From: Telluribacter roseus
GTDB lineage: Bacteria; Bacteroidota; Bacteroidia; Cytophagales; Spirosomataceae
Direction of reading: 5' to 3'
Length of the DNA: 64,000 nucleotides
NCBI RefSeq assembly: GCF_017355915.2
Contig: NZ_JAFEUV020000011.1
Coordinates: forward strand, 62,001-126,000
Position 1 is the first letter of the stretch. Each line of letters starts with the position of its first letter. The translations under genes and the position numbers were made by a program. Positions 462 to 15,647 of this stretch are shown piece after piece. The notes under the pieces were generated by a model. The model was not told the origin of the DNA, ran no database searches, and saw nothing but the letters and a program-made list of their open reading frames with translations.

Positions 462-2177
462 ATGCTACTTCGGCTCCAGTTTCTGTTAGTTTTCCTGGTT
501 TGCAGTGCTATTTCCCTTACAGCGAACAGTCAACCCAAACCACCCAGGCCTACCGATTTTATCAATGAGCTTTGGTATAAGAATAATGTCCTGTACAACC
601 TGGATGTAAAGGTGTTTCAGGATTCGGACGGTGACGGTGTGGGGGACTTCAGGGGCCTTACTACCCGACTCGATTACCTGAAAGACCTGGGAATAGGTAC
701 TATTTGGCTGTCGCCTTTCCATCCCAGCCCCAACGAAGATGACGGTTATGATATCACGGACTTCTATGGGATCGATTCCCGGTTAGGTACCATGCAGGAT
801 ATGGATGCGTTTTTGCGGCAGGCCAAGAAGCTGGGGTTCCGGGTAATCATGGACCTGGTCATCAACCACAGCTCGGATCAGCATCCGTGGTTTCAGGAGG
901 CCCGAAAAAACAAAAACTCTAAGTACCGCGACTGGTACGTCTGGTCAGAGAAACGCCCCCGCGATGCAGACAAAGGGATGGTATTTCCGGGACCGCAAAA
1001 GGAAACCTGGACGTACGACTCGCTGGCCAGGGAGCATTACTTCCACCGGTTTTTCCGCTTCCAGCCCGACCTCAACGCCCAGAACCCCGAGGTACAGGCG
1101 GAGCACCGCAAGATCATCAAGTTCTGGCTGGATAAAGGCATTGATGGCTTCCGTCTTGATGCCGTTCCCTTCCTGATAGAGGTACCCCGAACAAACATTG
1201 AAAAACCGGATCTGCAGTTTGACCTGTTGATGTGGCTGCGGCAATACGTCCAGTGGCAGAAGGGGGATGCCTTGCTATTGGGTGAGACCAACGTAGAACC
1301 CAAAGTCAATAAAATGTACTTTGGTGAAAACGGCGAGGGCATGCAGACGATGTTTAACTTCTACGCCAATCAGTTCCTGTTTTATTCATTTGCCAGCGAG
1401 GAGGTCAAAACGCTCGTTGAAGCCCTGGAGGCCACTAAGACACTACCAGTTACGGCTCAGTGGTCCTACTTCCTGCGCAATCACGATGAAATAGATCTGG
1501 ACCGGCTCAGCAAAAAACAGCAGAAGACCGTTTTTGATAAGATGGGGCCTGAGGAGCACATGCAGCTGTATGAGCGGGGTATCCGTCGCCGGCTGGCTCC
1601 CATGCTCAACAACCCGGCCCAGCTGCGGATGGCCTACAGCATACTGTTTGCGCTGCCAGGCACGCCCGTACTACGCTACGGGGAGGAAATCGGTATGGGC
1701 GATGACCTGAGCCTGAAAGAACGCCTGTCGGTACGGACGCCCATGCAGTGGTCGGATGGTCCGAACGCCGGATTTTCCAAAACCAGTAAAACCATACGTC
1801 CGGTTATAGACAAAGGAGAGTACGGCTATACCCGCGTAAACGTGGCGGATCAGCGCAAGGATTCTACCTCCCTGCTCAACCATATCCGCACCATGGGCCG
1901 CCTCTGGAAGCAGCATCCCGAGATCAGCAAAGGCGAGTGGAAGGTACTCGATAGTGGCTCCAAACACATACTGGCCCTCCTGTACCAGGGCGAGGAGCGG
2001 TCCGTAGTGACCCTTCATAATTTCAGCCACACCCCCCAAACCGCCCGCCTCAAAGTAGACAACATGAAACTCAAGACCGTCCACCTCAATAGCAACCAAA
2101 GTCGGCTTCTGCCTGGTACCAACCCCCAGGTCCAGCTCAACGGCTACGGCTTCGGGTGGTTTGAGGTGGAGGAGTAG
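462..2177 (+). CDS. Secreted GH13 alpha-amylase-family enzyme, trehalose-synthase-like
   Basis: A 571-residue protein with an N-terminal signal peptide (hydrophobic residues 3-21) and a complete GH13 catalytic barrel. Family motifs are all visible: DLVINHSSDQHPWF near 131-144, GIDGFRLDAVPF with nucleophile D233, LLLGETNV with acid/base E275, and FLRNHDE with the conserved H341-D342. The sequence FQDSDGDGVGDFRGLTTRLDYL and the stretch GIRRRLAPML followed by LPGTPVLRYGEEIGMGD are typical of maltose alpha-D-glucosyltransferases (trehalose synthase, TreS) and close oligo-glucosidases. TreS proper is cytoplasmic, so an exported version could instead be a periplasmic alpha-glucosidase or amylase. 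A short beta domain (about 480-571) ends the protein. There is no linked maltokinase. Family assignment is firm; the exact reaction is not. Confidence 0.85.
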   Translation: MLLRLQFLLVFLVCSAISLTANSQPKPPRPTDFINELWYKNNVLYNLDVKVFQDSDGDGVGDFRGLTTRLDYLKDLGIGTIWLSPFHPSPNEDDGYDITDFYGIDSRLGTMQDMDAFLRQAKKLGFRVIMDLVINHSSDQHPWFQEARKNKNSKYRDWYVWSEKRPRDADKGMVFPGPQKETWTYDSLAREHYFHRFFRFQPDLNAQNPEVQAEHRKIIKFWLDKGIDGFRLDAVPFLIEVPRTNIEKPDLQFDLLMWLRQYVQWQKGDALLLGETNVEPKVNKMYFGENGEGMQTMFNFYANQFLFYSFASEEVKTLVEALEATKTLPVTAQWSYFLRNHDEIDLDRLSKKQQKTVFDKMGPEEHMQLYERGIRRRLAPMLNNPAQLRMAYSILFALPGTPVLRYGEEIGMGDDLSLKERLSVRTPMQWSDGPNAGFSKTSKTIRPVIDKGEYGYTRVNVADQRKDSTSLLNHIRTMGRLWKQHPEISKGEWKVLDSGSKHILALLYQGEERSVVTLHNFSHTPQTARLKVDNMKLKTVHLNSNQSRLLPGTNPQVQLNGYGFGWFEVEE

Positions 2178-2484
2178 GGGGGATTGTAATGCTTTTCAGA
2201 CCACATTTTTGACTATTGCCCGCAACTACTAACAACACTTGAGATTATATATCCTGCTAATGGTTGTAACCAATGTACCGTTGGATAAATTTTTTTGGTT
2301 GTCCTATTCTAATTTTGGAAATTTAACACCCCGCTAAATCATAGAAAGACCAATCCACTATGGATTTGATTTTTTATGTTTTGCCCATAGATTTTTTGAC
2401 ATCATCCCTTTTCTATTAGTGGGGTTTATAAATTTTACTAGCCTACCCAGTTGTTAGGTTAGCTTTTGCACATATACACACTAT
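2178..2484. other. Non-coding left boundary of the AT-rich block
   Basis: About 300 bases with no supported gene. Base composition shifts within this stretch from the mixed composition of the GH13 gene to AT-rich DNA. A TAnnTTTG-like element (TAGCTTTTGC) at about 2460-2469 lies shortly before the first gene of the block and could be its promoter, though no well-placed -33 element is obvious. I saw no direct repeat shared with the right boundary near 13.9 kb and no integrase or tRNA. Confidence 0.4.
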
Positions 2485-4176
2485 ATGAAGAGACCTTTAT
2501 CATTCATTAACTATTACTACTTTTCTCACTCGTGTGTCTATTGGATTTTAATCTTACTTATGGGATGTAATGGTTATGATCTACCTAAAAGACTCTTCCC
2601 GAAGTGTGATCAGGTTTCTGTACAGCTGAATACAGAAGGTAAGCTCCTGGCTGTTGATTTTGCCTTAGTATCAGAAAATACTCCTATTGATAAAGTTGAT
2701 TGGTACTTTGGTGATGGAAAACATGTAACAACTACTAATTTAGAAACAAAGCATACTTATATAAATCCAGGGACATATAAGGTAAACGTTAATGTAACCA
2801 ATCGTTGCGGGGATGTAGTGACAGTAACAAAGGATTTGGTAGTTGAAAATGTGGTTATTCCTACCGTTGTTACTGAAGATCCAATTAGTATTACTTCCTC
2901 AAGTGCTACAGTGCGTATGGCTGTCAATAGTAATGGTAACGGCCTTATTTCATCCTATGGTATATGTTTTTCGGCTACAACCAACACACCAACAATTGAG
3001 TCAGCTACAGTTGTAAGAAATTTGGGGAATTCTAAAGATAATACACCTGTTACTTTCTCTCTTGAAAACCTTCTTCCTAATAAAGTTTACTATATACGTG
3101 CATTTGCAACTAATAGCGCAGGTACTGGATATGGTAATATCAAAATAGTACATACTAAAGGCTTACCTAGTGTAACTGCTTTAGAGGTAGTTTCTATTAG
3201 CAGAACAGAAGCAGCTATCAATCTTAGACTTAATGAGGCTGGGAATCCGCCTGCTACACATGTTGGCTTTTTGTTTTCTTCAAGTGTTAGTAATCCAACT
3301 TTGAGAACGAATGATAAACTATATACTCAGATACCAGCAACACCTATTGGAGTAACTACTCCTATCAAACAAAACTTAGAACCAAATACTTCTTACTTCT
3401 ATAGAGCCTTTGCAATTAGTTTTACTGATACTGTGTATACCGATGTATCAAGGCTTACTACACAGGGAGAGAACATTGCATTAGGACTGGCGGCACATTA
3501 TCCTTTAAATAACTCTGTTGTAGATAATTCTGGTAACCGTCGTAATGGACAGGCCTTTGGGGCCTCACCCACTAATGATAGGTGTGGACAGCAAAATAGA
3601 GCTTATGCTTTTGATGGTATCAACGATTTCATTACCATACCTTATACACCATCCAACCTGACTTCCTATACATTCTCAGCATGGGTATATGTTGCTGACC
3701 CTAATCAGTCAAAAGCAGCAATTAGTCAATTTCGTGGTATAGAAAGAACACTGGATAATCCTGCAAAAAGTTTTTCGCTATATTTTGATAAAGACGAAAA
3801 TGATAATAACTCATTCAAACTAAATTTTGGATTAGATGGAGACTATATATTAAGATCGAAAAAAGTACCCTATTCGTCCTTTTTGAATCAATGGGTTCAT
3901 ATAGTAGCTATATGGCAGGGAGGAGCTAACAGCCCTGTCGACCCAGGCCAAATGAAGCTTTATTTTAATGGAAACCAGGTTTCAGGTACTATCTTCAAGG
4001 ATTCTGAAAAGCCTATCAATGCTCCAATATCAGGAACTAGTACTATAAGATTAGGTCATCATCAAGTTTGGGACCGGTATTTCAAAGGAAGTATTGATGA
4101 TGTCAGGATTTATGAGAGAGCTTTGAGTGATGCTGAAATAATGCAACTGTGGCAACAGGAAAAGAATTGCTTATAA
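2485..4176 (+). CDS. Surface lipoprotein with PKD, Fn3-like and LamG domains
   Basis: A 563-residue protein. A hydrophobic segment ends in LILLMGCNG, a lipobox-like motif with Cys28, so the mature protein is probably lipid-anchored. Residues about 45-122 form a PKD domain (WYFGDGKH and HTYINPGTYKVNVNVTN are diagnostic). Two Fn3-like units follow, each with a YYIRAFATNSAGTGYG-type repeat (about 125-225 and 226-328). The C-terminal 230 residues match a LamG/concanavalin-like fold, from LAAHYPLNNSVVDNSGN to GSIDDVRIYERALSDAEI. These are adhesion or carbohydrate-binding modules; no catalytic motif is seen. It is the first gene of the AT-rich, same-strand block containing the caspase and tubulin-like genes, and could be its outer-surface component or an unrelated passenger. 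Confidence 0.8.
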   Translation: MKRPLSFINYYYFSHSCVYWILILLMGCNGYDLPKRLFPKCDQVSVQLNTEGKLLAVDFALVSENTPIDKVDWYFGDGKHVTTTNLETKHTYINPGTYKVNVNVTNRCGDVVTVTKDLVVENVVIPTVVTEDPISITSSSATVRMAVNSNGNGLISSYGICFSATTNTPTIESATVVRNLGNSKDNTPVTFSLENLLPNKVYYIRAFATNSAGTGYGNIKIVHTKGLPSVTALEVVSISRTEAAINLRLNEAGNPPATHVGFLFSSSVSNPTLRTNDKLYTQIPATPIGVTTPIKQNLEPNTSYFYRAFAISFTDTVYTDVSRLTTQGENIALGLAAHYPLNNSVVDNSGNRRNGQAFGASPTNDRCGQQNRAYAFDGINDFITIPYTPSNLTSYTFSAWVYVADPNQSKAAISQFRGIERTLDNPAKSFSLYFDKDENDNNSFKLNFGLDGDYILRSKKVPYSSFLNQWVHIVAIWQGGANSPVDPGQMKLYFNGNQVSGTIFKDSEKPINAPISGTSTIRLGHHQVWDRYFKGSIDDVRIYERALSDAEIMQLWQQEKNCL

Positions 4177-4238
4177 ATAAATTGATTAGTTGCAGAGGTG
4201 GTTGGGTAAGAGCAAATACATACACAAATTCAGTAAAT

Positions 4239-4994
4239 ATGAAGTTACATATATATAAACTACTAGTAGTTTTAGTCTGGACATGTATATATAATACATC
4301 ATATTGCCAGCCATCTGTATCAAATATTCGTATTGAAACAGATGCGAATAAAGTAAAAGTAGTTTATGATCTAGAAAGTATATCAAAGGAGGATTCATTA
4401 TATCTTCAAATTGAAGGCCGAAGCCGTGGCCCTCTAAACGTTAAGACAGTTAGTGGTGATCTTGGGAAGAATTTAACTTCTGGTAAGGAAAAGGTTATAT
4501 TATGGGATTATGCTCTAGATGGGGAACAACTTAATGAAGAGATTAGGCCAATTATAAAAGTTATTGAATCCAATCCTACGAGTTTAGCAGGTGGTGGACC
4601 TGCCAATGCATTTGTTTCATTACTGGCACCCGGTGTAGGAAATATCTTCGTTCAACCTAATCATAGAATTGGACTGAGGCCACTCATCACAGTAGCTTAT
4701 GGTGGTTTATTAGGTTATAGCCTAGTACAAAAAAGTAAATCAAATAAGCAGTATAATCTTTATCTGAAAGAACGTTATGAGCGGGATGCACTGCCCTACT
4801 ATAACAAGGCTAACCGTTATCATCACGAGTACATAGTCACTATGAGCATGGCTGCAACTATACTAGCAGTGGATGTGGTCTATACTTATCTCAAAGGACT
4901 ACGTAATAACCAACATAAACGAAATTCAAAGCAGAGTGTAATGCTACAATATATAGAAAAGACCCCATTAATAGGTTTAAAGTACACATTTTAA
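4239..4994 (+). CDS. Exported or membrane-associated protein of unknown function, next to caspase
   Basis: The reading frame is open from 4149, but the ATG at 4239 gives a proper signal peptide (KLHIYKLLVVLVWTCIYNTSYCQ) and avoids overlap with the preceding gene, so I use it (251 residues). The first half looks like a beta-sandwich ending in ILWDYALDGEQLNEEIRPIIKV. The second half has a glycine-rich hydrophobic stretch beginning SLLAPGVGNIFVQ, then RPLITVAYGGLLGYSLVQKSKS, a polar tyrosine-rich segment and a final hydrophobic segment. From memory, proteins with this VPG/APG-then-hydrophobic layout often sit directly upstream of caspase-family genes in Bacteroidota. Here the caspase gene begins 12 bp after its stop. 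Function unknown. Confidence 0.7.
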   Translation: MKLHIYKLLVVLVWTCIYNTSYCQPSVSNIRIETDANKVKVVYDLESISKEDSLYLQIEGRSRGPLNVKTVSGDLGKNLTSGKEKVILWDYALDGEQLNEEIRPIIKVIESNPTSLAGGGPANAFVSLLAPGVGNIFVQPNHRIGLRPLITVAYGGLLGYSLVQKSKSNKQYNLYLKERYERDALPYYNKANRYHHEYIVTMSMAATILAVDVVYTYLKGLRNNQHKRNSKQSVMLQYIEKTPLIGLKYTF

Positions 4995-5006
4995 ACAATA
5001 CTAGCT

Positions 5007-6131
5007 ATGAAAATAATATTATACATTATATGGTTTTTACTAGCAGTTAATTATACGTATGCTCAGAAAAAAGAGCATCAGTTTAAGTCAGATTGGGTGC
5101 AGTTAAAACCCAAAGTACAGCCTCCAGTTATTATATTGAAGAATCCACAAGCTGAACAATCGGTAGTAGAGCAATCTAACTATACCATAGTTGTTTGTGT
5201 TCAGTCTGATGCTCCCGTAGATAACTATTATTTTATTCATAATGGTAAGATTATTGGGGGACCCACAAGGGGCTTCAAACGAGTAGACTGTGGTCAGGAA
5301 GTATCACAGGAGTTAACACTCATTCAAGGTAAGAATGAAATAAAATTTGTAGCCACTAACGCCGGTGGTACCACAATATCCAATTCTTATTTTATTACCT
5401 ATACTCCTGTACCATCTCCTGTTGGGACAATAGCGTCCGATGCACAAATACAAAAGCGGCTGGCTCTTATAGTTGCAAATGAGGCTTATTCAAAGTATCC
5501 ACTCAAGAATTCAATAAATGATGGGCAAGCCATTCGTGAACGACTTGAAAATCTCGGTTTTACAGTGACCCTTCATGAAAATCAAAATCGAAAAGATTTT
5601 AAGAAAGTAGTTGATGCTTTCACAAGCAGCCTGACCGATAAGACGATTAGCCTCTTTTTTTACGCTGGACATGGACTTATGGTAAATGGTGTCAATTACA
5701 TACAACCTGTTGACGCTGATCCAACGACTGAAGCCGATGTGGAATTTGAGTGTTTTCCATTACGCCAGTTGGTAGCGCGTATGGAAGAAACTAATCCACA
5801 TGGATCCAATCTTGTATTCTGGGACGCCTGCCGTAACAACCCCTACCGGTCATGGCGCAGGGGAGCAGGTGAGCCTGTTTATGCTCCTACCAATCCTCCG
5901 GTTGGCACCATGATTGTCTATGCCACTGAGCCAGGTAAGTCGGCTTTAGATGGCGATGAGAAAAATGGATTATTTACCAGTGAGCTAATCAAGCACATAG
6001 ATGTACCTGGACAGGATATTTTCGAATTGATTGATAAAGTAGATAGAGGACTTGAAATGAGGGGCTTTAAGCAACCCCCTTATATTGAGGGACGTTTACG
6101 TGGTAAATTCATTTTCAATATAAACAAGTAA
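5007..6131 (+). CDS. Exported caspase-family peptidase (C14) with N-terminal Ig-like domain
   Basis: A 374-residue protein with a signal peptide (residues 1-20, ending NYTYAQ), an Ig-like beta domain at about 38-134, and a caspase p20-like domain from about 150 to the end. The domain opens with RLALIVANEAYSKYPLKNSINDG, and the catalytic dyad is clear: His222 in LFFYAGHG and Cys275 in FWDACRNNP. The DACRNNP motif is typical of bacterial metacaspase-like C14 proteins. Family knowledge: cysteine peptidases, often cutting after Arg or Lys, used in regulated proteolysis and cell death. The signal peptide puts this one outside the cytoplasm. It is the third gene of a same-strand block with short gaps, linked to a DUF4384 protein and a tubulin-like protein. 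Its target is unknown. Confidence 0.88.
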   Translation: MKIILYIIWFLLAVNYTYAQKKEHQFKSDWVQLKPKVQPPVIILKNPQAEQSVVEQSNYTIVVCVQSDAPVDNYYFIHNGKIIGGPTRGFKRVDCGQEVSQELTLIQGKNEIKFVATNAGGTTISNSYFITYTPVPSPVGTIASDAQIQKRLALIVANEAYSKYPLKNSINDGQAIRERLENLGFTVTLHENQNRKDFKKVVDAFTSSLTDKTISLFFYAGHGLMVNGVNYIQPVDADPTTEADVEFECFPLRQLVARMEETNPHGSNLVFWDACRNNPYRSWRRGAGEPVYAPTNPPVGTMIVYATEPGKSALDGDEKNGLFTSELIKHIDVPGQDIFELIDKVDRGLEMRGFKQPPYIEGRLRGKFIFNINK

Positions 6132-6188
6132 CGATAAGGCGGGCTTCATCCACCACTTTATCAATCAACATATTAAAACGTTAAATGT

Positions 6189-6836
6189 ATGCGCTACACA
6201 CTATACCAGCTTTTAATGCTTATGTTCATCATAAGCTTCTGCCCAGTTTCTTCATATGCTCAGGATCAGCATGAATCGCTGCCAGTTGATCAGAATGGTA
6301 ATGTGAACGAGGATAAGCTGAGTCCAAAGCAACTAAGAGACTTTCAGGAGCTTGTTGAACTTAAGGTTGCTGAGTTTCAAAATTTTTTATCCATCATTTC
6401 AGATCCCAAGCAGTCTGATCAGACTCGGGAGCTAGCCATTGAGAATGCGTTACGACTTTTCATGCCTAACTCTACTATGCAAGTTGGATCAGTAAAGAAT
6501 AAAACATTGATAAAAGAGTACCCGCTTTCTATATACCTAAGAAGGCTAAAAAACCTTGAAAAGAAGTACTTCGATATATCCATAACATTCTACGATCTGG
6601 CTCTGATCAATGACTGGGAGAAAACAAATACTGGATATGTGACCACTGCTACCTATTTTCAACGCTTCCAGGGAAAGAGTCGTGATGGGAAGATTATGTA
6701 TGAAGACAAAACCAGTAAGAATATGGATGTGGATCTACGGAATCGAAAAGATCCTTTCTATGAGGAAAATAAATGGACAGTACTACTAGGTGACATTCGT
6801 GTAGCAGAAATTACTCCCAAGAAATCTGTGCAATAG
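6189..6836 (+). CDS. Exported protein of unknown function (possible NTF2-like fold)
   Basis: A 215-residue protein with a signal peptide (hydrophobic 5-22, ending SSYAQ). The mature part has a helical segment rich in E, L and K (about 44-90), then an alternating pattern FDISITFYDLALIND and YVTTATYFQRFQGKSRDGK that suggests a cone-shaped alpha+beta fold of NTF2 type. No catalytic motif is seen. It follows the caspase gene by 57 bp, with the next gene 5 bp downstream, so it is very probably co-transcribed. The fold suggestion is inference from pattern only. Confidence 0.65.
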   Translation: MRYTLYQLLMLMFIISFCPVSSYAQDQHESLPVDQNGNVNEDKLSPKQLRDFQELVELKVAEFQNFLSIISDPKQSDQTRELAIENALRLFMPNSTMQVGSVKNKTLIKEYPLSIYLRRLKNLEKKYFDISITFYDLALINDWEKTNTGYVTTATYFQRFQGKSRDGKIMYEDKTSKNMDVDLRNRKDPFYEENKWTVLLGDIRVAEITPKKSVQ

Positions 6837-6841
6837 CACCT

Positions 6842-7822
6842 ATGGTACGGCTTCATTATATATTTTGTTTTATTGGGCTCTGTCTCATGCCATTCATAGC
6901 TTCCGGGCAAGAGACGGATTCTCTATTTTTCAAAAATGACTCTACTGGTAGCCATTCTTTACAAAAAAAAGATACAGTCCAGGGTAACTACAAGTCTCAG
7001 CGGCTGGCTGCTGAGCCATTTATGAAGGCTCGGGTTCATTATACAAATGATTTTGTCAGGCGTTTTAATGATTTGGTAGGTCCTGATAACGATTCAATTA
7101 ATGGGCCTCATGATCATACAGCGAGAAAGCAGCGAATACGACAACTGTTTGATTTGGAAGATAGTAGGCTTGCTAGTAGTGGTGGTAGTACTAATGTATA
7201 TAAATATTTGATTGATCAATTTCTATTTGAAATTTGTGATTCCTTTAAACCAAAACAGTTGATAGATGCAAATGAGAATATGTATGCAGAGGTTCGTGGT
7301 CTAGCTATCTGGAAGAATCAGACGCATGAGTATAAAATGTACTTAAAAAAGGACCGTATTGGTAGTAACTGGCTTTGGCAGATCATTGGTTTAGATGCTC
7401 CCTTTTTGATGACAGATAAGACTACATACGGCAAAGATTCAGTCACGAAAAGTAGTTCAAGATTTATTCCTCCCAATGCTCATGAAATGAACTTCATGGC
7501 CCTGCATAAGCATCTCAATGCCGGACTAAGCATTAAGTATTTTATCGATGATGCCTACCATGGTGACAGTTCGCTCAATGCCTTTGCTTACTATCATACT
7601 ATAGGTCAGCTTCGCCCTCAGACACTTGAAATTTCATCTTTATGGATCTATACTCCAATGGGCTGGCTTATTCAATTGCGACAGTTTAACCGTGATTCTG
7701 ATAATTCAGGATGGTTAATTAGTGATTTGTGTCGTCTGACGGAGTCGATTTGTTTACCAAAAGGACTACAGCATAAAGTTAAAGATACGTTTATCTCAAA
7801 TGGTCGTGGAGTAGAAAAGTGA
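6842..7822 (+). CDS. Exported protein of unknown function in the caspase block
   Basis: A 326-residue protein with a signal peptide (MVRLHYIFCFIGLCLMPF, cleavage near IASGQ). A low-complexity Ser/Asp/Lys linker is followed by a mixed alpha/beta region containing MYAEVRGLAIWKNQTHEYKM and a C-terminal part with WIYTPMGWLIQLRQFNRDSDNSGW. I do not recognise a family. It starts 5 bp after the preceding gene and is followed 6 bp later by the DUF4384 gene, so the three are transcriptionally and perhaps translationally coupled. AT-rich codon use matches the rest of the block. Confidence 0.65.
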   Translation: MVRLHYIFCFIGLCLMPFIASGQETDSLFFKNDSTGSHSLQKKDTVQGNYKSQRLAAEPFMKARVHYTNDFVRRFNDLVGPDNDSINGPHDHTARKQRIRQLFDLEDSRLASSGGSTNVYKYLIDQFLFEICDSFKPKQLIDANENMYAEVRGLAIWKNQTHEYKMYLKKDRIGSNWLWQIIGLDAPFLMTDKTTYGKDSVTKSSSRFIPPNAHEMNFMALHKHLNAGLSIKYFIDDAYHGDSSLNAFAYYHTIGQLRPQTLEISSLWIYTPMGWLIQLRQFNRDSDNSGWLISDLCRLTESICLPKGLQHKVKDTFISNGRGVEK

Positions 7823-7828
7823 AATTAC

Positions 7829-9346
7829 ATGAAATTAGCTTCATACATATTGATCATTCTCCTATTAGTAGGGCTATCAACTACGTGGGCGCAGTCTTAC
7901 ACTCATGCAGAGAAGATCAAAATTGCTAAAACAGCTCGACAATTGATTAATGACAAGTACTTAGCGAATGTTGAGATATTAACAAATTACGAAGCTAACC
8001 AGCCATTTGAGGCTTTGCAAGGTCAGTTAAATGGCTTAGTCAAAGATGCGTTTTTCAATCAAGATGTACTTATATTTAATGAGTTCAGGACCGCAGTCAA
8101 AGCCTATACTTCGGTAGAGGAATATATAAAAGACTGCCGCATTTTCTCGGGCGGTAAACCTTTGAAGAATAGTCTAAACTTTGATGAGGCACGCTTTGAC
8201 ATTCAAAAAACAAAAGACGGTGAGCCATTTGTAAATGTTTATCTAGTTAAACAATTAAATGGCATTGATTTACATGGCGCAAAGCTCCATTATCAAAATT
8301 TGACCGAGTTTCGGGTACATTTCATATATAGTAAAGCTGCTGAAACATTTCTTAACTTCAAAATCACTGGCATCAGTAAAGTAGATAAATGGCCTCCTTC
8401 GGCCTTCACTTTATCTGAACAGGACGCTAAAGCCGCTGATGAAGGAATAGTCGAGAAGCCAAAGGATCTTTTATCTGCTTTAACTTCACTAACTGCCAGT
8501 ATTAAGCAGTTTGTGCCAGTAAATACTCTCAGCCTTACGCTTGAGGCTTTTTCTTATAACAATTGTGGTATTAATGATGGCCTCTCTGACCGTATCTACG
8601 CTACATTTAGCAGTTGCCTGCAGAAACAAATTAAGATAGAAGCCGTATCTGCCGCTCAACTTACAGAATCTCCTCTTCGTATCAGAGGTTACTACCAGGA
8701 GGATATCAATAATTTAAAAATAGTAGCTGAGCTGGTAGATACTAAAACTAATAAAGTGCTTTCGAAGGCGGAGAACTCCGAACTACCTCTTACGTGGCTT
8801 GACCAACAAGGTTTGCGATTAAAACCAGCAACATATCAGCAAGAAGTAGCTATTCAGGATACAATCAGACAATACACTCCAGTAGCAAAAACATCCTTGA
8901 TAATCAAAGTCAATACTGATCGGGGACGTACAGGAGTCGAATATTGGGAGGGACAGCAAATGAGGATTGAGGTCATAGCTAACCGGCCATGCTATTTGAG
9001 GTTGCTGTACCGGTTGGCTGATGGAACACATACCCTATTGGAGAATAGCTTTGAAATCAAACCGGGACAGGAAAATAAACCTGTGCGTATAGCTCCCCAG
9101 GCTACCTTTATATGCTCTGCTCCATTTGGTACAGAGTATCTACTGGCTTATGCTTCTGAGGTTCCCTTTTGCCCTATCCCGACTAGTTCAAAGCAGAAGG
9201 TGCATTTGCGTGAGGAGGATGGCTATAAGTTTGTTGTGGGGCCTCTTGCAGCGATAATTGAGACCCTCAAATGCAATCAGAAGCAGCAGGAAACAATAGC
9301 AGTGGATAAAGTACAAATAACTACCCGCGCTATAGCCAAGCGTTAG
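7829..9346 (+). CDS. Exported DUF4384 protein with FlgO/CsgG-like middle region
   Basis: A 505-residue protein with a signal peptide (residues 1-21, ending TWAQ). Residues about 30-190 are an unassigned helical/beta region. About 235-325 resembles the FlgO/TolB-N type of outer-membrane assembly domain (SDRIYATFSSCLQKQ, then IVAELVDTKTNKVLSKAEN). Residues about 355-445 fit DUF4384: IIKVNTDRG, YWEGQQMRIEVIANRPCYLRLLY, LLENSFEIKPGQ and APFGTEYLLAYAS. DUF4384 is known as a frequent partner of bacterial caspase-like proteins and kinases, sometimes fused to them; the split arrangement here supports a functional link with the peptidase at 5007. Probably periplasmic. Confidence 0.75.
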   Translation: MKLASYILIILLLVGLSTTWAQSYTHAEKIKIAKTARQLINDKYLANVEILTNYEANQPFEALQGQLNGLVKDAFFNQDVLIFNEFRTAVKAYTSVEEYIKDCRIFSGGKPLKNSLNFDEARFDIQKTKDGEPFVNVYLVKQLNGIDLHGAKLHYQNLTEFRVHFIYSKAAETFLNFKITGISKVDKWPPSAFTLSEQDAKAADEGIVEKPKDLLSALTSLTASIKQFVPVNTLSLTLEAFSYNNCGINDGLSDRIYATFSSCLQKQIKIEAVSAAQLTESPLRIRGYYQEDINNLKIVAELVDTKTNKVLSKAENSELPLTWLDQQGLRLKPATYQQEVAIQDTIRQYTPVAKTSLIIKVNTDRGRTGVEYWEGQQMRIEVIANRPCYLRLLYRLADGTHTLLENSFEIKPGQENKPVRIAPQATFICSAPFGTEYLLAYASEVPFCPIPTSSKQKVHLREEDGYKFVVGPLAAIIETLKCNQKQQETIAVDKVQITTRAIAKR

Positions 9347-9434
9347 TCTAAAATGCGGTGTAGACACAATAATTTGTTCCGAATCGTATCCAATTATACT
9401 ATCAACTAGACTCACTATAAAATATTAACACACT

Positions 9435-10199
9435 ATGAATTGGCTACTCGAACTCATTGCTATTGTCTCTGAGGGACTAGGCAGATTTACTCCGAGGAAC
9501 TTAGGGCTTACTCTTGCGGCAGCACTTGGCTTCGCTCTTCTTTGTGGTTGGATTTGCCTCCATTATGTACAACTATGGAATAAACGGTTCCAACTAACCA
9601 CTACTCATAAAATATTCACTGCTCTGGCCTGTACATTTACCTTCTTTTTCGTATTGGCTTTTGCGGGGTTAGCTTTTATGCGGGAGATCACACAAGCACA
9701 GATTATAATCTGGCAGGGGAATCTCAAAGAGGATCAAGATTGGAGCCAAAGAACTTTTGAGAAGACCTATCATAAAGTTAAAGAATCCGGTAAAGAAGAT
9801 ATATCCACTTTCCCTCCCATAGAGAGAAATATCATCCCGGTTACTCATAATGATTCTCAGCTCCTTGCTGCTCAGATTTACTCTAATGAGGCTTGTACGA
9901 ACTTTGATGAAATGCACCCATTCCTAAGTAAAATCGTTTGGGCTACTCCTTCTCTCCCTACTGAAGTAATTCATTCAGATGTAACATCCTTTTTTAAAAG
10001 TAACCCTGGCAAAACCTATCCAACTATAAATGCTATTGATCTGGCAGCAAAGCATATAAAAGATGAGCTACTGGTACAAGCACCACGAGTAGTCACCATC
10101 TCACGCATAGGTTTAGTGCTGGCATTTATTCTGGTACAGTTGGTTCCGTTCGGTATTATTGGCGTTGCTGCATATAAGGATATAAAAAGCAGTCTTTAA
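9435..10199 (+). CDS. Membrane protein with three transmembrane segments, unknown function
   Basis: A 254-residue protein with hydrophobic segments at about 22-44, 60-82 and 220-245, and a large polar domain (about 85-218) between the second and third. No signal peptide or known motif. It sits between the exported proteins and the cytoplasmic tubulin-like protein, 35 bp before the latter, and could anchor that protein or carry signal across the inner membrane. This role is inference from position and topology. The upstream 88-bp gap is one of the larger ones in the block, so a second promoter is possible. Confidence 0.65.
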   Translation: MNWLLELIAIVSEGLGRFTPRNLGLTLAAALGFALLCGWICLHYVQLWNKRFQLTTTHKIFTALACTFTFFFVLAFAGLAFMREITQAQIIIWQGNLKEDQDWSQRTFEKTYHKVKESGKEDISTFPPIERNIIPVTHNDSQLLAAQIYSNEACTNFDEMHPFLSKIVWATPSLPTEVIHSDVTSFFKSNPGKTYPTINAIDLAAKHIKDELLVQAPRVVTISRIGLVLAFILVQLVPFGIIGVAAYKDIKSSL

Positions 10200-10233
10200 A
10201 ATGTTCTTTTTTCACAATTAATAAGGGTACATC

Positions 10234-13200
10234 ATGGCTAATCATCTACTAATAGTTTCAGGAGGCACGGGCGGTAAGGTAGTTAGAGCGTTTAAGAAAT
10301 TAGTCTACCAACAATACAGAAACGAAGACCCAAATAATATTGGGTATTTGTATATCGATTCAAGCACTGACGAATACAGTAAGGAGTCGGAATGGGAAGT
10401 GATGGGTGAATCAATAGCATTAGGTACAAGTAACTTCCTGGAGCTGAAATCAGACAACCTGGCCAGCAAATTTGCTGAAATTGAAAGGTATCCTGGAGTT
10501 AAGAACTTCATTGGTGACCAAAAGTACTGGCTTGATCTAATAAATGACTCACGAGGTCAAAAAACGGCTGGAATGCAACGTCGCCGAATGGGACGTATCT
10601 TGTTTGCCAGTAATGCCAAAACCTTTAATTCAGCACTGGCTCAACAGGTTTTAAAGCTACAGCAGGATACCAATGAAACAAATGTTACTTTTCACGTTTG
10701 CGCTGGTTTAGCAGGAGGCACGGGAAGTGGATCAATAGTGGATATAATAACGCAGATTCGTAATAACTACCCAGCGTATGATAAAAACTATTCTATTCTG
10801 GTATACGTATACCTACCCGAGGACGCAACTACCTGGAATACCGAACTGGACTTCTACTATGCAAATGGTTATGCGGCCCTCATGGATTTAAATGCACTTA
10901 GTGCAGGTGCTTTACGCCCTTATGATGTTACCGGCGAGAAGGGGCAGCTTAATGTGGACACTCCATTCACAGGTTGTTATGTGTTCAGCAATCAGAATGA
11001 AAATGGCATATCGGTTAACAAGGAAACAGAGCTGCCATCCATTGTAGCAGATTTTATTTATCAAAAAACCATAGGCCTGGCTCAGATCTCTTCCGAGTTA
11101 CACCGTTTGGAGTCAGGAGAAAACGGCGATCCAACTCCTGAAATGGCTGTTGGTAGTAGAACAGCTGAGCGCAGTAAACGCTTTTTAAGCTTTGGGATTA
11201 AAAGGCTTGCTATTCCTGAGCAGGAAATTAGGGAGTACCTTACCTACAATCTGGCTAAGCAGGCTGCACTTCAGCTACGTTTTAATAATTGGGTGGATGT
11301 AGCAGGTTATGTTAATGATCCAAAGCCAAGAAGCTTTAATGAAGAGGTGCGCCAGGCCGATATACTTCATAGATGGCGTTTAACCTTCAACCACCTTATC
11401 TTATCAGAGGCTGTTCTTATAGATGATACGAGCAGAAAGTGGAAGACGTATCAAACGCACTGGCGTGAAAAGTGTGAATTCTTCAAATCATTAGCCAGGC
11501 AGAGTGAAAAAGTGAGATGGATAGATGCTTTTAAATCTCTATCACTAAAAGAGTATGAAGAAGATTTTAGGAAGTCAGGTGGTGTTATAAGTTTTTTCCT
11601 TGCGAAGCGGAAGGATAAACGTGATATGGCTATCGAGATTCGAAGGGGTATTGAAGGTGAGTTCTTTGGAGAGTGGCGAAGTGGAAAGTTGTCGATCTAT
11701 GACCTTAAACTAAAACTAGGTGCACTACTAGATTATTTACGAACAGATCTAACAAGAGAACTGGACAATAAACTAGAAGCACAAAGCAGGTTGTTGGATA
11801 CTGCCAAGGAGGCAGTAAGGGTTAATGATGAGAATTGGGCCAAGATTGGTCTCCTCTCAGACATGCTCGGAAAGCGTGAGCAGATTTTTGAAGCCCAGGT
11901 ACTAGCTATCCAGGATGAATACCGCATTCGTACCACTATAGAAGGAATCAAGTTTGGAAAGGATTTTATATATGAGGTAGTTGAGCAACTTGAATTGTTG
12001 AATCAGGAAATTACCAAAGCAAGCGCAACGATCAATAGTGGTTTAGAGATATTTGACCAAAGCATTCTGTCACGCTGTAATGATCAGGAGTGGACACTGG
12101 ATGATGAATCAGAGTATATAGAAGTCTTTAAGCAACAGTTGGTACCCTTCTATGAATCAATGAAGGTGAAAGAAATAGTAAAAAGATTTGAGCGTGACGA
12201 TAAGGTACAAGAGCAACAAACGGCGAAGGTTCGGGAGACATTGTCAAATATTCTTGGTGTAAACCGCCAGAGCTTTGTAAACTTTAATAGTCTCATATCC
12301 AAAAGTACCTTTGTTAATACTTTAGAAAAAGTATGTCAGGAGAACGCAGTTGCTTTCGAAGCAGATTTAGGTACTCAGGATAGGCTATTAGGTATGAACG
12401 TACTGGAAAAACTGCGTTACAAATACGAGAATAATACCAGGGCCCTTCGCAGCTTGACTAGTCAGCTTATGAGGTTTGCTGGATGCTACGCTCTATTCAA
12501 TCAAAATGAGATTAATAAAGCAGGTGATGGTTTCTCGGCGGGAGCCGCGAAAAGAACCCTGTTTGTTATTCTACCTAAGAACTCATCTGTAAACTATCCT
12601 ACATTTATAGATGAATTAAAAGAAGCGTTCGAGTTTAATAAAAATCAGCAGAGTGAATTGAAGTTTCTTGAAGCTGATTCTAGCGAACATCAAATAACGC
12701 TGATGACGGTAACCAGTTTATTCCCCCTACGGTACCTGACCCACACGGAGCGACTACGGGAGAAGTACCGTCTGCGTTTGCAAAAATCTGACTCTGTTAA
12801 GGCACGTATGCTGGTCCATATTCAGGATGATGAATTGCCTGATCTGTTTGCTCCAACTCTACAGGAAGCCAATGAAAAGCTAGATCAAAAGCGTGTTCAA
12901 TCGATAACCGATCTTTTGATGGCCCATGCGATGGATCTTGTAAAAGAGAAGGAGAATGAAAATGGGTATAAAAAGTTAGCATTAGTGGAAGTTGACCGAT
13001 TTGGAGATGAGGAACCTCTATTCTATATGGACAAGATGCTTCATAATGCGTGGAAAAGCCTAATACCTTCTGAAATTGAAAAGCTTTCCCAAGTTGTTCG
13101 TCAGGAAAGTGTAACTAACTACAGACATAAGTCCAAAAGAGTTGAACTTGTGGCTAAAATTGAGAAGATGGTAGTTAAACTCAGAGAAGAAGCAGGTAAT

Positions 13201-13269
13201 CCCAACGACTACAATCTTTTTAAAGATGCTGCAAAAAGGCTGATAAATGATCTGGAAAAAGAGAATTGA
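10234..13269 (+). CDS. Large tubulin/FtsZ-like protein (Tubulin_2 type)
   Basis: A 1011-residue protein without signal peptide or membrane segments, so cytoplasmic. The N-terminus reads LLIVSGGTGGKVVRAFKKL (residues 5-23), a nucleotide-binding start, followed by IGYLYIDSS. At 155-167 is CAGLAGGTGSGS, the tubulin/FtsZ signature GGTGSG that contacts GTP phosphates. Later FSAGAAKRTLFVIL and repeated charged helices (for example 590-720) make up a long C-terminal region absent from FtsZ (about 380 residues). Such proteins are annotated as tubulin-like-domain proteins; Makarova and Koonin described FtsZ-like families proposed to act in membrane remodelling together with vWA, GTPase and OmpA-type proteins. 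Here the neighbours are a caspase and DUF4384 protein instead. GTP use and polymerisation are predicted, not shown. Confidence 0.8.
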   Translation: MANHLLIVSGGTGGKVVRAFKKLVYQQYRNEDPNNIGYLYIDSSTDEYSKESEWEVMGESIALGTSNFLELKSDNLASKFAEIERYPGVKNFIGDQKYWLDLINDSRGQKTAGMQRRRMGRILFASNAKTFNSALAQQVLKLQQDTNETNVTFHVCAGLAGGTGSGSIVDIITQIRNNYPAYDKNYSILVYVYLPEDATTWNTELDFYYANGYAALMDLNALSAGALRPYDVTGEKGQLNVDTPFTGCYVFSNQNENGISVNKETELPSIVADFIYQKTIGLAQISSELHRLESGENGDPTPEMAVGSRTAERSKRFLSFGIKRLAIPEQEIREYLTYNLAKQAALQLRFNNWVDVAGYVNDPKPRSFNEEVRQADILHRWRLTFNHLILSEAVLIDDTSRKWKTYQTHWREKCEFFKSLARQSEKVRWIDAFKSLSLKEYEEDFRKSGGVISFFLAKRKDKRDMAIEIRRGIEGEFFGEWRSGKLSIYDLKLKLGALLDYLRTDLTRELDNKLEAQSRLLDTAKEAVRVNDENWAKIGLLSDMLGKREQIFEAQVLAIQDEYRIRTTIEGIKFGKDFIYEVVEQLELLNQEITKASATINSGLEIFDQSILSRCNDQEWTLDDESEYIEVFKQQLVPFYESMKVKEIVKRFERDDKVQEQQTAKVRETLSNILGVNRQSFVNFNSLISKSTFVNTLEKVCQENAVAFEADLGTQDRLLGMNVLEKLRYKYENNTRALRSLTSQLMRFAGCYALFNQNEINKAGDGFSAGAAKRTLFVILPKNSSVNYPTFIDELKEAFEFNKNQQSELKFLEADSSEHQITLMTVTSLFPLRYLTHTERLREKYRLRLQKSDSVKARMLVHIQDDELPDLFAPTLQEANEKLDQKRVQSITDLLMAHAMDLVKEKENENGYKKLALVEVDRFGDEEPLFYMDKMLHNAWKSLIPSEIEKLSQVVRQESVTNYRHKSKRVELVAKIEKMVVKLREEAGNPNDYNLFKDAAKRLINDLEKEN

Positions 13270-13300
13270 ATAATAGACACTATCAGAAATACTCACACTA

Positions 13301-13882
13301 ATGGTAAAGCGACACGGAAAATGTACTAATATAGATGATGATTGCCTTAAAGCTAAATCAGGCGATGTTATCACTGTTGAAGGAGCTAATGAATTTATTT
13401 GTCCTGAATGTAGGAGTGATCTTTTTGAAGTACCTAAACCAAAGCCTTCTAGGCCAAAATGGCTAGTACCCGCTCTACTTTTAATTTTATTGGTTGCCGG
13501 AGGTTTTGGATTAGTTACCATTATTGATGGAATTGGCGGTATTGGTGGGACGACAACTGATACTACAGGTAAAACAGTTCATCGAGATCCGCCAGGACCT
13601 ACTCCTCCAACTGATCCAGTTAAATCTAATACTTCTCTACTTCCACGTAGTGGTGTAAAGATTGAAAATACTGAGGAATGTCAAGACTGCCAATCCTACT
13701 ACTATGTTCATGATGGAAAAGGAGGAAGAAGACGCGAAGGTGGGAATTATAGTACTAGCTGTTGCCAATGTGGTACAGTCAAACGTTTCAGCGATGGCTA
13801 TGACTACAGCATCACTTGTGATGGAGATAGGATTATAGCTAAGATGATAACTTCTGCAAGTAATCAGGATGAAACCAATTAG
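13301..13882 (+). CDS. Membrane-anchored zinc-ribbon protein
   Basis: A 193-residue protein. The N-terminus holds four cysteines (C8, C15, C34, C37) in the pattern GKCTNIDDDC and FICPEC, a zinc ribbon. A Pro/Lys linker leads to one transmembrane helix (about 53-75), then a Gly/Thr/Pro linker and a second Cys-rich region (C127, C130, C154, C155, C157, C173). From memory, the same kind of N-terminal ribbon heads PstS/OmpA-type proteins associated with FtsZ-like proteins. It starts 31 bp after the tubulin-like gene and is the last gene before the terminator at 13.9 kb. With the ribbon inside and the second Cys region outside, it could link the cytoplasmic tubulin-like protein to the exported components; this is inference. 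Confidence 0.7.
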   Translation: MVKRHGKCTNIDDDCLKAKSGDVITVEGANEFICPECRSDLFEVPKPKPSRPKWLVPALLLILLVAGGFGLVTIIDGIGGIGGTTTDTTGKTVHRDPPGPTPPTDPVKSNTSLLPRSGVKIENTEECQDCQSYYYVHDGKGGRRREGGNYSTSCCQCGTVKRFSDGYDYSITCDGDRIIAKMITSASNQDETN

Positions 13883-13902
13883 AGCTAACACCTCAAAATA
13901 AC

Positions 13903-13937
13903 AAAAGCCCGTTATAATATGCGGGCTTTTTATTTTT
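13903..13937. terminator. Bidirectional hairpin terminator at right end of the AT-rich block
   Basis: AAAAGCCCG pairs with CGGGCTTTT around a 10-base AT-rich loop, with T-rich runs on both strands. It lies between convergent genes (plus-strand stop at 13882, minus-strand stop at 13996) and can end both transcripts. Confidence 0.75.
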
Positions 13938-13995
13938 CCATAAAAGTAGATGTAGTATCTGTACCACATTTAATAGCCACTTGATATACATCTAT

Positions 13996-14565
13996 TCATG
14001 CAATCTCAATCCCCTCCAGCACCCGATCGGCCTGCTGGATGTGCCTTTCGTCGTGGGCTTTGACAAAGGCGAACGTGTCACCCAGGTTTAGCCTGACGAA
14101 TTTTGAAATGGAGATAGGTACTTTGATTTGGTTAAGATTCAGGTGTTCGGCTTCGCGGAGTAGCTGCAGCCAATGCTCCTGCTGGTCGATGAAGCTGGCT
14201 ACCACCTGGGCCCCGTTCAGATCAGACGGTGGTACGTGCCCTTTCATGGCTTTGTACTTCCGTTTATTTTCTGCCTTCATAAGGCTAGTAAAGTAGCTAC
14301 CCAGGTAGCCGCTCCGGAAGTAGGGGGTGGAGTGTCTGTACCGGGTAGGGCATGTGTCTATGGCCCCCTGTACTGCCGGTAGGTAGTACCTGCCGTAGCT
14401 ATTGAGGTGCTCCAGGCACTGGGCTGCTGACCAGCCCCCGCCGGGGTCTGGTTGCAGGAGTTGAACTTCCGGCAGGTTCTGGTATACCCGCGTGGCCTTA
14501 TCCAGGTGTTCCTCTACCTGCTGCTGCAAGCCGCCCAGCCATTCTGCAGTAAGATGCCTTTTCAT
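13996..14565 (-). CDS. DinB-family protein
   Basis: The start is the ATG at 14565, which overlaps the stop of the upstream gene as ATGA; the longer open frame to 14658 lies inside that gene. The 189-residue product has the four-helix DinB/YfiT layout, with LQPDPGGGWSAAQCLEHLNSYGRYY (His of the metal triad), FVRLNLGDTFAFVKAHDERHIQQADRVL (the other two histidines) near the C-terminus. Family members are small metal-binding enzymes, several of them thiol-dependent transferases, but most have no known substrate. The ATGA overlap implies translational coupling to the DUF4345-like gene. Confidence 0.8.
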   Translation of the reverse strand: MKRHLTAEWLGGLQQQVEEHLDKATRVYQNLPEVQLLQPDPGGGWSAAQCLEHLNSYGRYYLPAVQGAIDTCPTRYRHSTPYFRSGYLGSYFTSLMKAENKRKYKAMKGHVPPSDLNGAQVVASFIDQQEHWLQLLREAEHLNLNQIKVPISISKFVRLNLGDTFAFVKAHDERHIQQADRVLEGIEIA

Positions 14566-14987
14566 CGGCTTACGGCCTGCGGGTGAGTGGTCAGTCGGGT
14601 CTTTAGGAAGAGCAGTAGCAGGGAACACGCGCAAAGCACCGATTCGATTACCAGCCACTGCTGTCCAAAATCGCCCAGGCTGCCCTCCACCAAGATGGTG
14701 GTTACTCTCGAAACGGCATAGGAGCCCCAGAGAATGGAGATAAAGATCAGCCCCCGGGTAACGTCCCGCAGCAGCAGGTACACCAGTAGTACTACGATAG
14801 TAAGACTTACCCCACCGTAAACGCCCCGGATGGAGCTGTAGGCATCGGTGTTAGTGAGCTTCACGCCCACCAGATCCATGACGGACTGGGGATCAGAAAA
14901 GGCCATCAGGCAGACTGAGAAGATGGACAGGGCCGATAGGCTGAGCAGGGCTTTACTGAGTCCGTTTACAAGTTGTTGTTTTTTCAT
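14562..14987 (-). CDS. DUF4345-like integral membrane protein
   Basis: I take the ATG at 14987 (MKKQQLVNGLSKALL) rather than the upstream in-frame codon at 15017, giving 141 residues. There are four hydrophobic segments: LLSLSALSIFSVCLMAF, GVYGGVSLTIVVLLVYLLL, GLIFISILWGSYAVSRV and WLVIESVLCACSLLLLFL. The loop MDLVGVKLTNTDAYSSIRGVYGG resembles DUF4345 proteins. Function unknown. It lies 75 bp downstream of the Crp-like regulator and overlaps the DinB-type gene by four bases, so the three probably form one minus-strand operon. Confidence 0.7.
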   Translation of the reverse strand: MKKQQLVNGLSKALLSLSALSIFSVCLMAFSDPQSVMDLVGVKLTNTDAYSSIRGVYGGVSLTIVVLLVYLLLRDVTRGLIFISILWGSYAVSRVTTILVEGSLGDFGQQWLVIESVLCACSLLLLFLKTRLTTHPQAVSR

Positions 14988-15062
14988 GGCTACTAATTGG
15001 TTTGATTTATATCCCAAAATTGCGCCCTTTCCGGAATCTAATTCTTGGTATTTACCATGATT

Positions 15063-15647
15063 TCAGATCCGCACTTTGTTCAACAACTTACTGAAATTGG
15101 TCGGATCAACACTTAGATAACTGGCCAGGTACTTATGAGGTACGAGCTGCAGGATGTGCGGGCTTCGTTTTAGTAAGGTCTTAAACCGCTCCTCCGATGA
15201 GAACGACTGCAGCTCTACCAGTCTTTCCAGAACGCCCGATAAAGCCCCGCTAACACCGATGCGTATCATCCTTTCAATAGAAGGGTACTGGAGCATAAGG
15301 CGATCCAGATCCTGAAAACTTGCCTTAAGTAACAAAGAAGGGGTAAGGGTTTCGTAGTAGTACCTTGAGGGCTGCTGAAACAGGAAAGAGTCGATGACCC
15401 CACCGAACTGATGGGTATAGTTAAAGACGAGCGTAGCTTCCCGATCCAAGTCGTCGGCATAGTATACCCGCTGGAGGCCATCCAATACAAAGTAGAGGTA
15501 CTTCTCGGTATCCCCCTTAGCGGTAAGGAGTACTTTTCGTTTTACTTCCTGAGGTTTCCAGATGGCCAGAAACTCTTCCACCTCCTGTTCTTTCAGTGGG
15601 TACAAACTCATTACTACCTGGCGCAAAGGTTCACTGTTGGTAAGCAT
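15063..15647 (-). CDS. Crp/Fnr-family transcription regulator
   Basis: A 194-residue protein with a cyclic-nucleotide-binding-type beta-roll (about 15-130; YLYFVLDGLQRVYY and a YETLTPSLLLKA stretch) and a short C-terminal winged helix in which HKYLASYLSVDPTNFSKLLNK fits the recognition region. The RxR/E phosphate-binding motif of true cAMP receptors is not evident, as in most Bacteroidota relatives, whose ligand is unknown. It heads the operon with the DUF4345-like and DinB genes and may control it. Confidence 0.8.
   Translation of the reverse strand: MLTNSEPLRQVVMSLYPLKEQEVEEFLAIWKPQEVKRKVLLTAKGDTEKYLYFVLDGLQRVYYADDLDREATLVFNYTHQFGGVIDSFLFQQPSRYYYETLTPSLLLKASFQDLDRLMLQYPSIERMIRIGVSGALSGVLERLVELQSFSSEERFKTLLKRSPHILQLVPHKYLASYLSVDPTNFSKLLNKVRI

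Follow-up and report, generated by a model that had tools for sequence, protein, structure and literature searches.

FtsZl1 (FtsZ-like 1; Pfam Tubulin_2) was placed by Makarova and Koonin in 2010 in predicted membrane-remodelling systems (PMC2875224). In the passages of that paper on the family, a vWA partner is present in most operons, a diverged P-loop GTPase or kinase is frequent, and an OmpA-type protein occurs in several genomes; no similarity to the T6-H7 region or the C-terminal domain of tubulin was found in FtsZl1. No experimental study of the family turned up in our literature search. We analyzed a nine-gene block of Telluribacter roseus, located in a 64,000-nucleotide stretch of contig NZ_JAFEUV020000011.1 (the window), in which a Tubulin_2 gene is joined to genes for an exported caspase and a DUF4384 protein. 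All nine genes are on the + strand. Gene 8 (10234-13269) encodes a predicted GTPase of the Tubulin_2/FtsZl1 type (1011 amino acids; PF13809, 3.6e-55), gene 3 (5007-6131) encodes a caspase of 374 amino acids with an N-terminal export signal (PF00656, 1.2e-33), and gene 6 (7829-9346) encodes an exported protein of 505 amino acids with DUF4384 at residues 372-446 (PF14326, 1.2e-7). The product of gene 7 (9435-10199; 254 amino acids), designated TM3, has three hydrophobic segments and a helical domain, as judged by hydrophobicity and a structural model. The product of gene 9 (13301-13882; 193 amino acids), designated ZnR, has an N-terminal zinc ribbon recognized by its Cys motifs, one membrane segment, and a predicted extracytoplasmic tail.

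Comparison with described systems

The block resembles the FtsZl1 systems, as the passages of PMC2875224 portray them, in its Tubulin_2 domain with the GGTGSG loop, the long helical region following the FtsZ-like domain, the exported and membrane partners, and a canonical FtsZ elsewhere in the genome, which is located on another contig (PF00091, 6e-44). It differs from them in that the exported caspase and the DUF4384 protein stand in place of vWA, P-loop GTPase, and OmpA partners. In the nine block proteins, Pfam and a DxSxS motif scan showed no vWA domain, Pfam and a Walker A motif scan showed no P-loop GTPase or kinase, and Pfam showed no OmpA-type partner. The words caspase, protease, peptidase, and zinc are absent from the main text of PMC2875224, which was covered without its supplements. 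A further difference is the tubulin C-terminal domain in the model of the window protein, for which those passages report no counterpart.

Tubulin was also described by Kaur et al. in 2020 in membrane-proximal conflict systems with vWA domains, zinc ribbons, and GTPases (PMC7159879). According to the relevant passages of that paper, its DO-GTPase/GAP1-N2 systems share with the block a tubulin with a coiled-coil or helical C-terminus, membrane-proximal partners, and zinc ribbons; FNIII and NTF2 are among their partners, and caspases occur in other systems of the same paper. In contrast, no DO-GTPase was recognized in the block, neither a Walker A nor a DxSxS motif being detected in its nine proteins. 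In the passages of PMC8283722 and PMC6426788 on caspase-DUF4384 proteins, orthocaspases of cyanobacteria and alphaproteobacteria show the same domain combination, with no mention of tubulin. There the two domains are fused, whereas here they are encoded by separate adjoining genes, carry export signals, and share an operon with a tubulin-like gene. The EACC1-caspase two-gene systems (NF047832), as outlined in PMC7159879, similarly have a caspase near a membrane protein; however, the window caspase scored 32.4 bits against the NF047832 cut-off of 140 and carries an export signal. The original prediction, made from the sequence alone, considered the combination to be undescribed. Indeed, no published description of a tubulin-like protein with an exported caspase and DUF4384 protein was found in the literature covered, which did not extend to supplements or bioRxiv, yet the membrane-proximal conflict systems with tubulin had been described in 2020, as far as the passages of PMC7159879 go.

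Recurrence of the tubulin-caspase linkage

A pattern scan, run on a single genome from each species, identified 186 stretches encoding relatives of the tubulin-like protein, of which the best 80 were analyzed. Together with the window and L009, L010, L012, and L025, these constituted 85 loci with 84 distinct tubulin-like sequences, some of them near-identical; L008, L011, and L023 were omitted as duplicates of L033, L043, and L046. Caspase, DUF4384, TM3, ZnR, OmpA, and vWA were counted in each locus with profile hidden Markov models (HMMs) built in this analysis, and export, lipobox, and topology calls were made by simple rules written for the purpose, not by a dedicated predictor. Seven divergent PF13809 loci (L024 and L026-L031), which account for seven of the nine places other than the window where Tubulin_2 was found in the phylum and which showed no match to the caspase, DUF4384, TM3, or ZnR models, were omitted, and the counts apply to the ZnR-associated subfamily only. 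Among the best 80 of the 186 stretches, the relatives were mostly from Bacteroidota and Proteobacteria, with others from Verrucomicrobiota and Acidobacteriota and isolated examples in further groups. Its distribution marks the tubulin-like protein as accessory: it was present in 6 of 150 genomes of the family, and at the level of the phylum 10 of 395 genomes carried Tubulin_2 of any kind, T. roseus being included in both counts.

A caspase was found in 23 of the 85 loci and DUF4384 in the same 23, neither occurring alone, and 22 of these 23 sets were on the strand of the tubulin-like gene. Approximately 0.8 caspases would be expected by chance in 85 loci. This value was derived from 91 caspase matches in 170.6 Mb of 40 carrier genomes, after removal of 8 that were placed within the loci on the basis of their coordinates, and the density is slightly low because the genome scan overlooked caspases of the Janthinobacterium locus that the protein scan detects. 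Upstream DNA was visible over 5 kb or more in 65 loci, of which 19 had a caspase. Named strains of Janthinobacterium, Zoogloea, and Methylovulum belong to the caspase-bearing subset.

The proteins themselves were conserved in the features expected of their families. Peptidase_C14 was matched in Pfam by 23 of 23 caspases (of 24, with the truncated L083 omitted), and PF14326 by all 24 DUF4384 proteins. The His/Cys dyad was kept in 23 of 24 caspases, the remaining one being cut by a contig end; in the window caspase, His222 and Cys275 fall in the conserved dyad columns. An N-terminal hydrophobic export segment was present in 23 of 24 caspases (the exception begins at a contig edge), with a lipobox in 16, and the exported caspase is a predicted lipoprotein in many Proteobacteria. 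The DUF4384 proteins showed such a segment in 22 of 24 cases. Thus, export of both proteins, as originally proposed, was borne out at the level of N-terminal signals. A search of the PDB with a DUF4384 profile gave no match up to E 0.1. The T. roseus genome contains one other caspase, which belongs to a different subfamily (L134 in the caspase tree).

Next, the phylogenetic positions of the linked genes were compared. In the tubulin tree, which was obtained by a quick search with Shimodaira-Hasegawa-like approximate likelihood ratio (SH-aLRT) support only, caspase loci were distributed over four places: a proteobacterial clade of 14 rows, most of them betaproteobacterial, six loci in a Methylococcaceae clade, the window with Siphonobacter, and L025. 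The caspase label required 4 changes on this tree, at least 3 of them forced by branches with SH-aLRT of at least 95. A single origin of the proteobacterial caspase-linked tubulins was rejected in a clade test of 21 rows, comprising the 20 proteobacterial rows and L098, whose upstream DNA is cut (approximately unbiased test, p-AU 0.00011; long branches call for caution with this value). For comparison, the caspase tree included 21 caspases as background and 9 that came from Parabacteroides loci or from DUF4384 loci lacking tubulin, the L113 sequence being in both sets. As observed, the 20 proteobacterial tubulin-linked caspases formed one clade (99/99), the main caspases of the window and Siphonobacter formed a pair elsewhere, and positions apart from both groups were taken by the second caspase of Siphonobacter and by that of L025. 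Because the window caspase lies outside the proteobacterial caspase clade, the pairing arose at least twice, and tubulin-like loci have, judged by these trees, recruited a caspase on at least two occasions.

Pairwise distances of the tubulin-like proteins and caspases were correlated across the 20 proteobacterial loci (rho 0.68), with 0 of 2000 permutations as high, and also in the 11-row clade (rho 0.67; 2 of 2000). The corresponding correlations were 0.75 for tubulin and DUF4384 and 0.86 for tubulin and ZnR. The linkage of the tubulin-like gene to caspase and DUF4384 recurs at several phylogenetic positions, indicating that the coupling is more than chance.

Some loci showed additional genes around the caspase. 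In the closest relative of the window, Siphonobacter (L008/L033), one operon encodes two caspases and also a fusion of a papain-like peptidase with DUF4384. The caspase/DUF4384 operons of the Parabacteroides-type loci L025 and L113 contain a gene with a weak match to sigma-70 region 4 (0.0089 in L025) and a small Cys-rich gene resembling an anti-sigma factor, which perhaps provide these operons with their own regulation. Glycine-zipper-like proteins adjoining the proteobacterial caspases were below Pfam cut-offs and are not claimed. In a rumen metagenome-assembled genome named Elusimicrobia (L105), the tubulin-like gene fell within a Bacteroidales clade, reflecting either transfer or a mis-binned contig.

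Fold of the tubulin-like protein

The tubulin-like protein is predicted to consist of a tubulin GTPase domain, a helical insertion of ~420 residues, a tubulin C-terminal domain, and a C-terminal tail. The GGTGSG motif of the original prediction was located as AGGTGSG at residues 160-166, in agreement with the GGGTG(S/T)G-type loop of the FtsZl1 family, and of these residues positions 161-164 and 166 were invariant in 40 of 40 aligned sequences. A profile search of PDB sequences with the protein gave no significant match, the best being a tubulin at E 0.027. An AlphaFold2 model from 38 sequences had a mean predicted local distance difference test score (pLDDT) of 88.6 and a predicted template modelling score (pTM) of 0.71. 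Among solved structures, the best Foldseek match of this model was CetZ (3zid_A, E 7e-7). VIA-align superimposed model residues 1-856 on CetZ 1-346 (Z 26.8; root-mean-square deviation, rmsd, 3.7; 313 of 360 CetZ residues). Because the match spans CetZ 1-346 and extends to model residue 856, the model contains both tubulin domains and would thus represent a complete tubulin fold with GTPase and C-terminal activation domains. Residues 375-760, following the GTPase domain, were modelled mostly as helices, and the secondary structure places the putative insertion at residues ~350-770, between H9 and S8. Residues E296, N297, and E303 were also invariant in 40 of 40 sequences. They lie between a helix ending at 294 and a strand beginning at 311, where T7 would be positioned, and this segment is a candidate T7 loop. 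Sequence and model together support assignment of the protein to the tubulin superfamily as a member of the FtsZl1/Tubulin_2 kind.

Two arrangements of tubulin-like genes are recorded here. In L009 (G105), the tubulin-like operon is convergent to two genes resembling ftsA and ftsZ by eye (186-3142 and 3212-7758), and genes for canonical and non-canonical FtsZ would thus be neighbors. In Spirosoma telluris (L058), the tubulin-like gene is in two pieces near 10001-12981, owing to a frameshift or an assembly error.

Membrane partners

A ZnR gene accompanied the tubulin-like gene in 82 of 85 loci, on the same strand in 79 and usually a few tens of bases downstream. The three loci without it (L010, L034, and L071) all stop at a contig end, and in L050, L053, and L055 the ZnR gene is divergent. 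A membrane segment was detected in 85 of 90 ZnR matches; in these the ribbon precedes the segment (by a lenient rule), and the more positive flank was on the ribbon side in 67 of the 85. These features are consistent with a topology in which the ribbon is inside and the tail outside.

The TM3 HMM matched in 45 of 85 loci, 41 of them on the same strand. The TM3 model was confident and helical (pLDDT 90.2). It had no clear relative among solved structures, and weak matches of its long helices to BAR-like proteins were left uninterpreted, the best Foldseek E being 0.19 and the best VIA Z 8.4 with an rmsd of 12.8. OmpA was detected by HMM in 22 of 85 loci, with two of the matches (L088 and L112) doubtful, and PBP plus OmpA (L047) or TPR (L075) is carried on the ZnR protein itself. 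Matches to vWA-like domains occurred in 5 of 85 loci; the seed of this HMM, L096, has itself only a match to Pfam VWA_4 at E 0.098.

In the Akkermansiaceae loci L096 and L110, TM3, the tubulin-like gene, and a ZnR fused to the vWA-like domain occur together, and a protein with a P-loop GTPase and CxxC motifs is encoded near the tubulin-like gene. These two loci perhaps form a bridge between the ZnR-linked tubulin subfamily and the DO-GTPase conflict systems. In gut Bacteroides and Prevotella (L087, L103, L106, L085, and others), conserved and mostly exported proteins without assignment (c4, c6, c5, and often c13) are encoded downstream of the tubulin-ZnR pair.

Possible mechanism and alternative explanations

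On balance, we lean toward a trans-envelope module, in which the cytoplasmic tubulin-like GTPase controls an exported protease cassette. The GTPase, which probably polymerizes, would be tied to the inner membrane by ZnR, with its ribbon inside and its tail outside, and also by TM3 where this is present. A signal crossing the inner membrane through ZnR/TM3 would then activate the exported caspase. The cassette, comprising the caspase, the DUF4384 protein, and accessory exported proteins, would act in the periplasm or at the outer membrane, and the consequence may be regulated proteolysis of the envelope, either for remodelling or for self-destruction under attack. The narrower proposal, in which a polymerizing tubulin homologue would signal through ZnR to the exported caspase as a self-destruction or defense machine, seems decidedly unlikely.

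Several results weigh against such coupling. No caspase was found within the locus DNA examined in 62 of the 85 loci, and the same held for 46 of the 65 whose upstream DNA was visible over 5 kb or more. The caspase and DUF4384 genes of L025 are on the strand opposite to the tubulin-like gene, and in the uncounted Parabacteroides locus L094, a similar operon also runs opposite to the tubulin-like gene, with other genes in the ~12 kb that separates the latter from the caspase. In a search of 247 Bacteroidota genomes, DUF4384 was present in 31 (26 over the cut-off). At least 10 of the 30 listed loci have a caspase adjoining DUF4384, and that of the window is the only one with a tubulin-like gene within ~1.5 kb either side; among 10 wider DUF4384 regions, a caspase was found in 6 and a tubulin-like gene in none. 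Moreover, the 14-row proteobacterial caspase clade and the nearest relative, Siphonobacter L033, had no TM3 HMM match, and the tubulin-caspase correlation was not significant in the six Methylococcaceae loci (rho 0.63; 224 of 2000). Coupling is read here from gene conservation, and the products of conserved neighbors may not touch one another.

Because no caspase was seen in the examined DNA of 62 of the 85 tubulin-like loci, and because Bacteroidota also have caspase/DUF4384 pairs with no tubulin-like gene nearby, the Tubulin_2/ZnR module and the caspase/DUF4384 module are, as far as gene content tells, separable and repeatedly joined, and do not constitute one obligate system. In the tubulin-free L173, for example, a DUF4384 gene occurs with two caspase genes and a gene resembling gp2, and Larkinella (L011/L043) and L009 of the same family have TM3, tubulin, and ZnR genes with OmpA and secreted Ig_7/Por_Secre_tail proteins, without a caspase. 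The original prediction of one coupled variant was thus upheld in that the linkage recurs in several phylogenetic positions, and partly contradicted in that the genes are also found apart; they are joint in 23 of 85 loci. This separability would suit two independent modules (Tubulin_2-ZnR and exported caspase-DUF4384) that were joined by transfer and are co-transcribed with no shared mechanism, and the block, which is AT-rich and patchy (6 of 150 family genomes, its own included), does look transferred. However, the joining recurred, with different caspases, in two or more independent lineages, the tight spacing and order of the genes are kept across Oxalobacteraceae, Zoogloeaceae, Burkholderiaceae, and Comamonadaceae, and tubulin and caspase diverged in a correlated manner; we consider the reading of two independent modules unlikely.

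If the modules are coupled, two main outcomes can be envisaged. One is a constitutive machine of the FtsZl1 type for envelope remodelling or surface maturation, in which the caspase would process envelope proteins non-lethally. Membrane remodelling was the role proposed by Makarova and Koonin, as given in the passages of PMC2875224, and the OmpA matches among relatives, the PBP plus OmpA or TPR on ZnR, and the secreted Ig_7/Por_Secre_tail proteins in Larkinella L011 and in L009 agree with it. Nevertheless, the sparse accessory distribution argues against a core role, and the canonical FtsZ elsewhere in the T. roseus genome also speaks against it. This outcome is possible, if rather doubtful. 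The other is an anti-phage or conflict system, with the tubulin-like polymer as sensor or threshold and the periplasmic caspase executing lysis or abortive infection. Its patchy distribution and the tubulins in GTPase-centered conflict systems, with caspases in others (in the passages of PMC7159879), would fit. In addition, 71 PADLOC models were matched at 1e-10 by 84 hand-picked proteins flanking 13 caspase-type loci, compared with 5 for a set of equal size (84 proteins) drawn from 13 other regions of 9 of those genomes. In Agitococcus lubricus (L068, 305-6731), HEC-01 and BREX PglZ/BrxL genes lie upstream of the caspase-tubulin operon, and in L091 a type II DNA methyltransferase gene adjoins the locus and another flank protein is SbcC-like. 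A defense-island setting, placed in at least 2 of the 13 loci, is suggestive. The 71 models are redundant, and the matches were placed in these two loci only, that to a type II restriction enzyme model being unplaced; four other flank proteins were ordinary (recC, two-partner secretion, nifJ, and uraD). Against PADLOC 2023, the block proteins themselves matched only a caspase model (4.4e-05) and GajB (0.02), which does not place them in any defense system. There was little sign of mobile spread: no tubulin-like relative was confirmed on viral contigs, and 1 of 72,556 plasmid records carried one. A phage origin was rejected, the one phage-record match being distant and partial (23%). Furthermore, an exported caspase would be unusual for phage defense. 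Taken together, we regard this outcome as improbable, to the same degree as the reading of two independent modules.

Under the trans-envelope reading that we favor, recurrence of the linkage in distant bacteria suggests an uncharacterized machine through which a skeleton inside the cell would be linked to proteases on the outer side of the inner membrane. FtsZl1/Tubulin_2, known from sequence since 2010, gains a model of a complete fold and a near-universal membrane partner in ZnR, and a definable subset with an exported caspase and a DUF4384 protein is newly delineated. Some exported caspases of Gram-negative bacteria may gain a function from the link to tubulin. Whether a tubulin homologue governs proteolysis beyond the inner membrane becomes an accessible question.

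Organization of the block

The nine same-strand open reading frames that the original prediction had outlined span 2485-13882, with gaps of 12, 57, 5, 6, 88, 34, and 31 bases from gene 2 to gene 9. Its further claims of a single closing terminator and of an AT-richer composition agreed with the sequence. The block ends in an intrinsic-terminator-like hairpin (13903-13930, +) with a 10-pair stem, 5 GC pairs, and a T run, which ranked first of 21 terminator-like hairpins listed in 1-16000. The GC content of 2485-13882 is 39.3%, compared with 49.9% in the remaining window and a lowest value of 47.8% among 78 overlapping equal-sized downstream stretches. Searching upstream of the block for a Bacteroidota-type promoter found none, the 2 matches in the window being at chance level. 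No noteworthy flanking repeats were found. An empty insertion site was not definable from G004 and G015, relatives with a homologue of the flanking amylase, which share no gene order with the window.

Pfam confirmed the PKD/LamG, caspase, DUF4384, and tubulin-like products that had been named at the outset, and the Cys motifs and single membrane segment of gene 9 agreed with the zinc-ribbon membrane protein. Gene 1 (2485-4176, +; 563 amino acids) encodes an exported lipoprotein with PKD (PKD_4, 6e-10), LamG (Laminin_G_3, 8e-24), and fn3-like regions, the last below the cut-off, and with an LMGC lipobox identified by eye. Gene 2 (gp2; 251 amino acids from ATG 4239, 4239-4994, +) starts at this ATG or at GTG 4149, which would overlap gene 1, and encodes an exported or membrane protein. 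Genes 4 (gp4; 6189-6836, +; 215 amino acids) and 5 (gp5; 6842-7822, +; 326 amino acids) encode exported proteins; by eye, both of these and the N-terminal part of the DUF4384 protein are candidates for NTF2-like folds. No Pfam or NCBIfam family above the cut-off and no PADLOC match was found for gp2, gp4, gp5, TM3, or ZnR, and no PHROGs match was obtained for the four proteins searched. Homologues of gene 1 (at the equivalent position), gp2 (39.5% identity), and gp5 are present in Siphonobacter L008, and homologues of gp4 in the operons of L008, L009, L011, and L012. Weak gp2 homologues adjoin the caspases in L025 and in the 17.5 kb tubulin-free region of L173. Elsewhere in the window, AT-rich stretches were also observed at 34001-35000 (GC 0.39, with strong AT skew) and 48001-50000 (GC 0.42).

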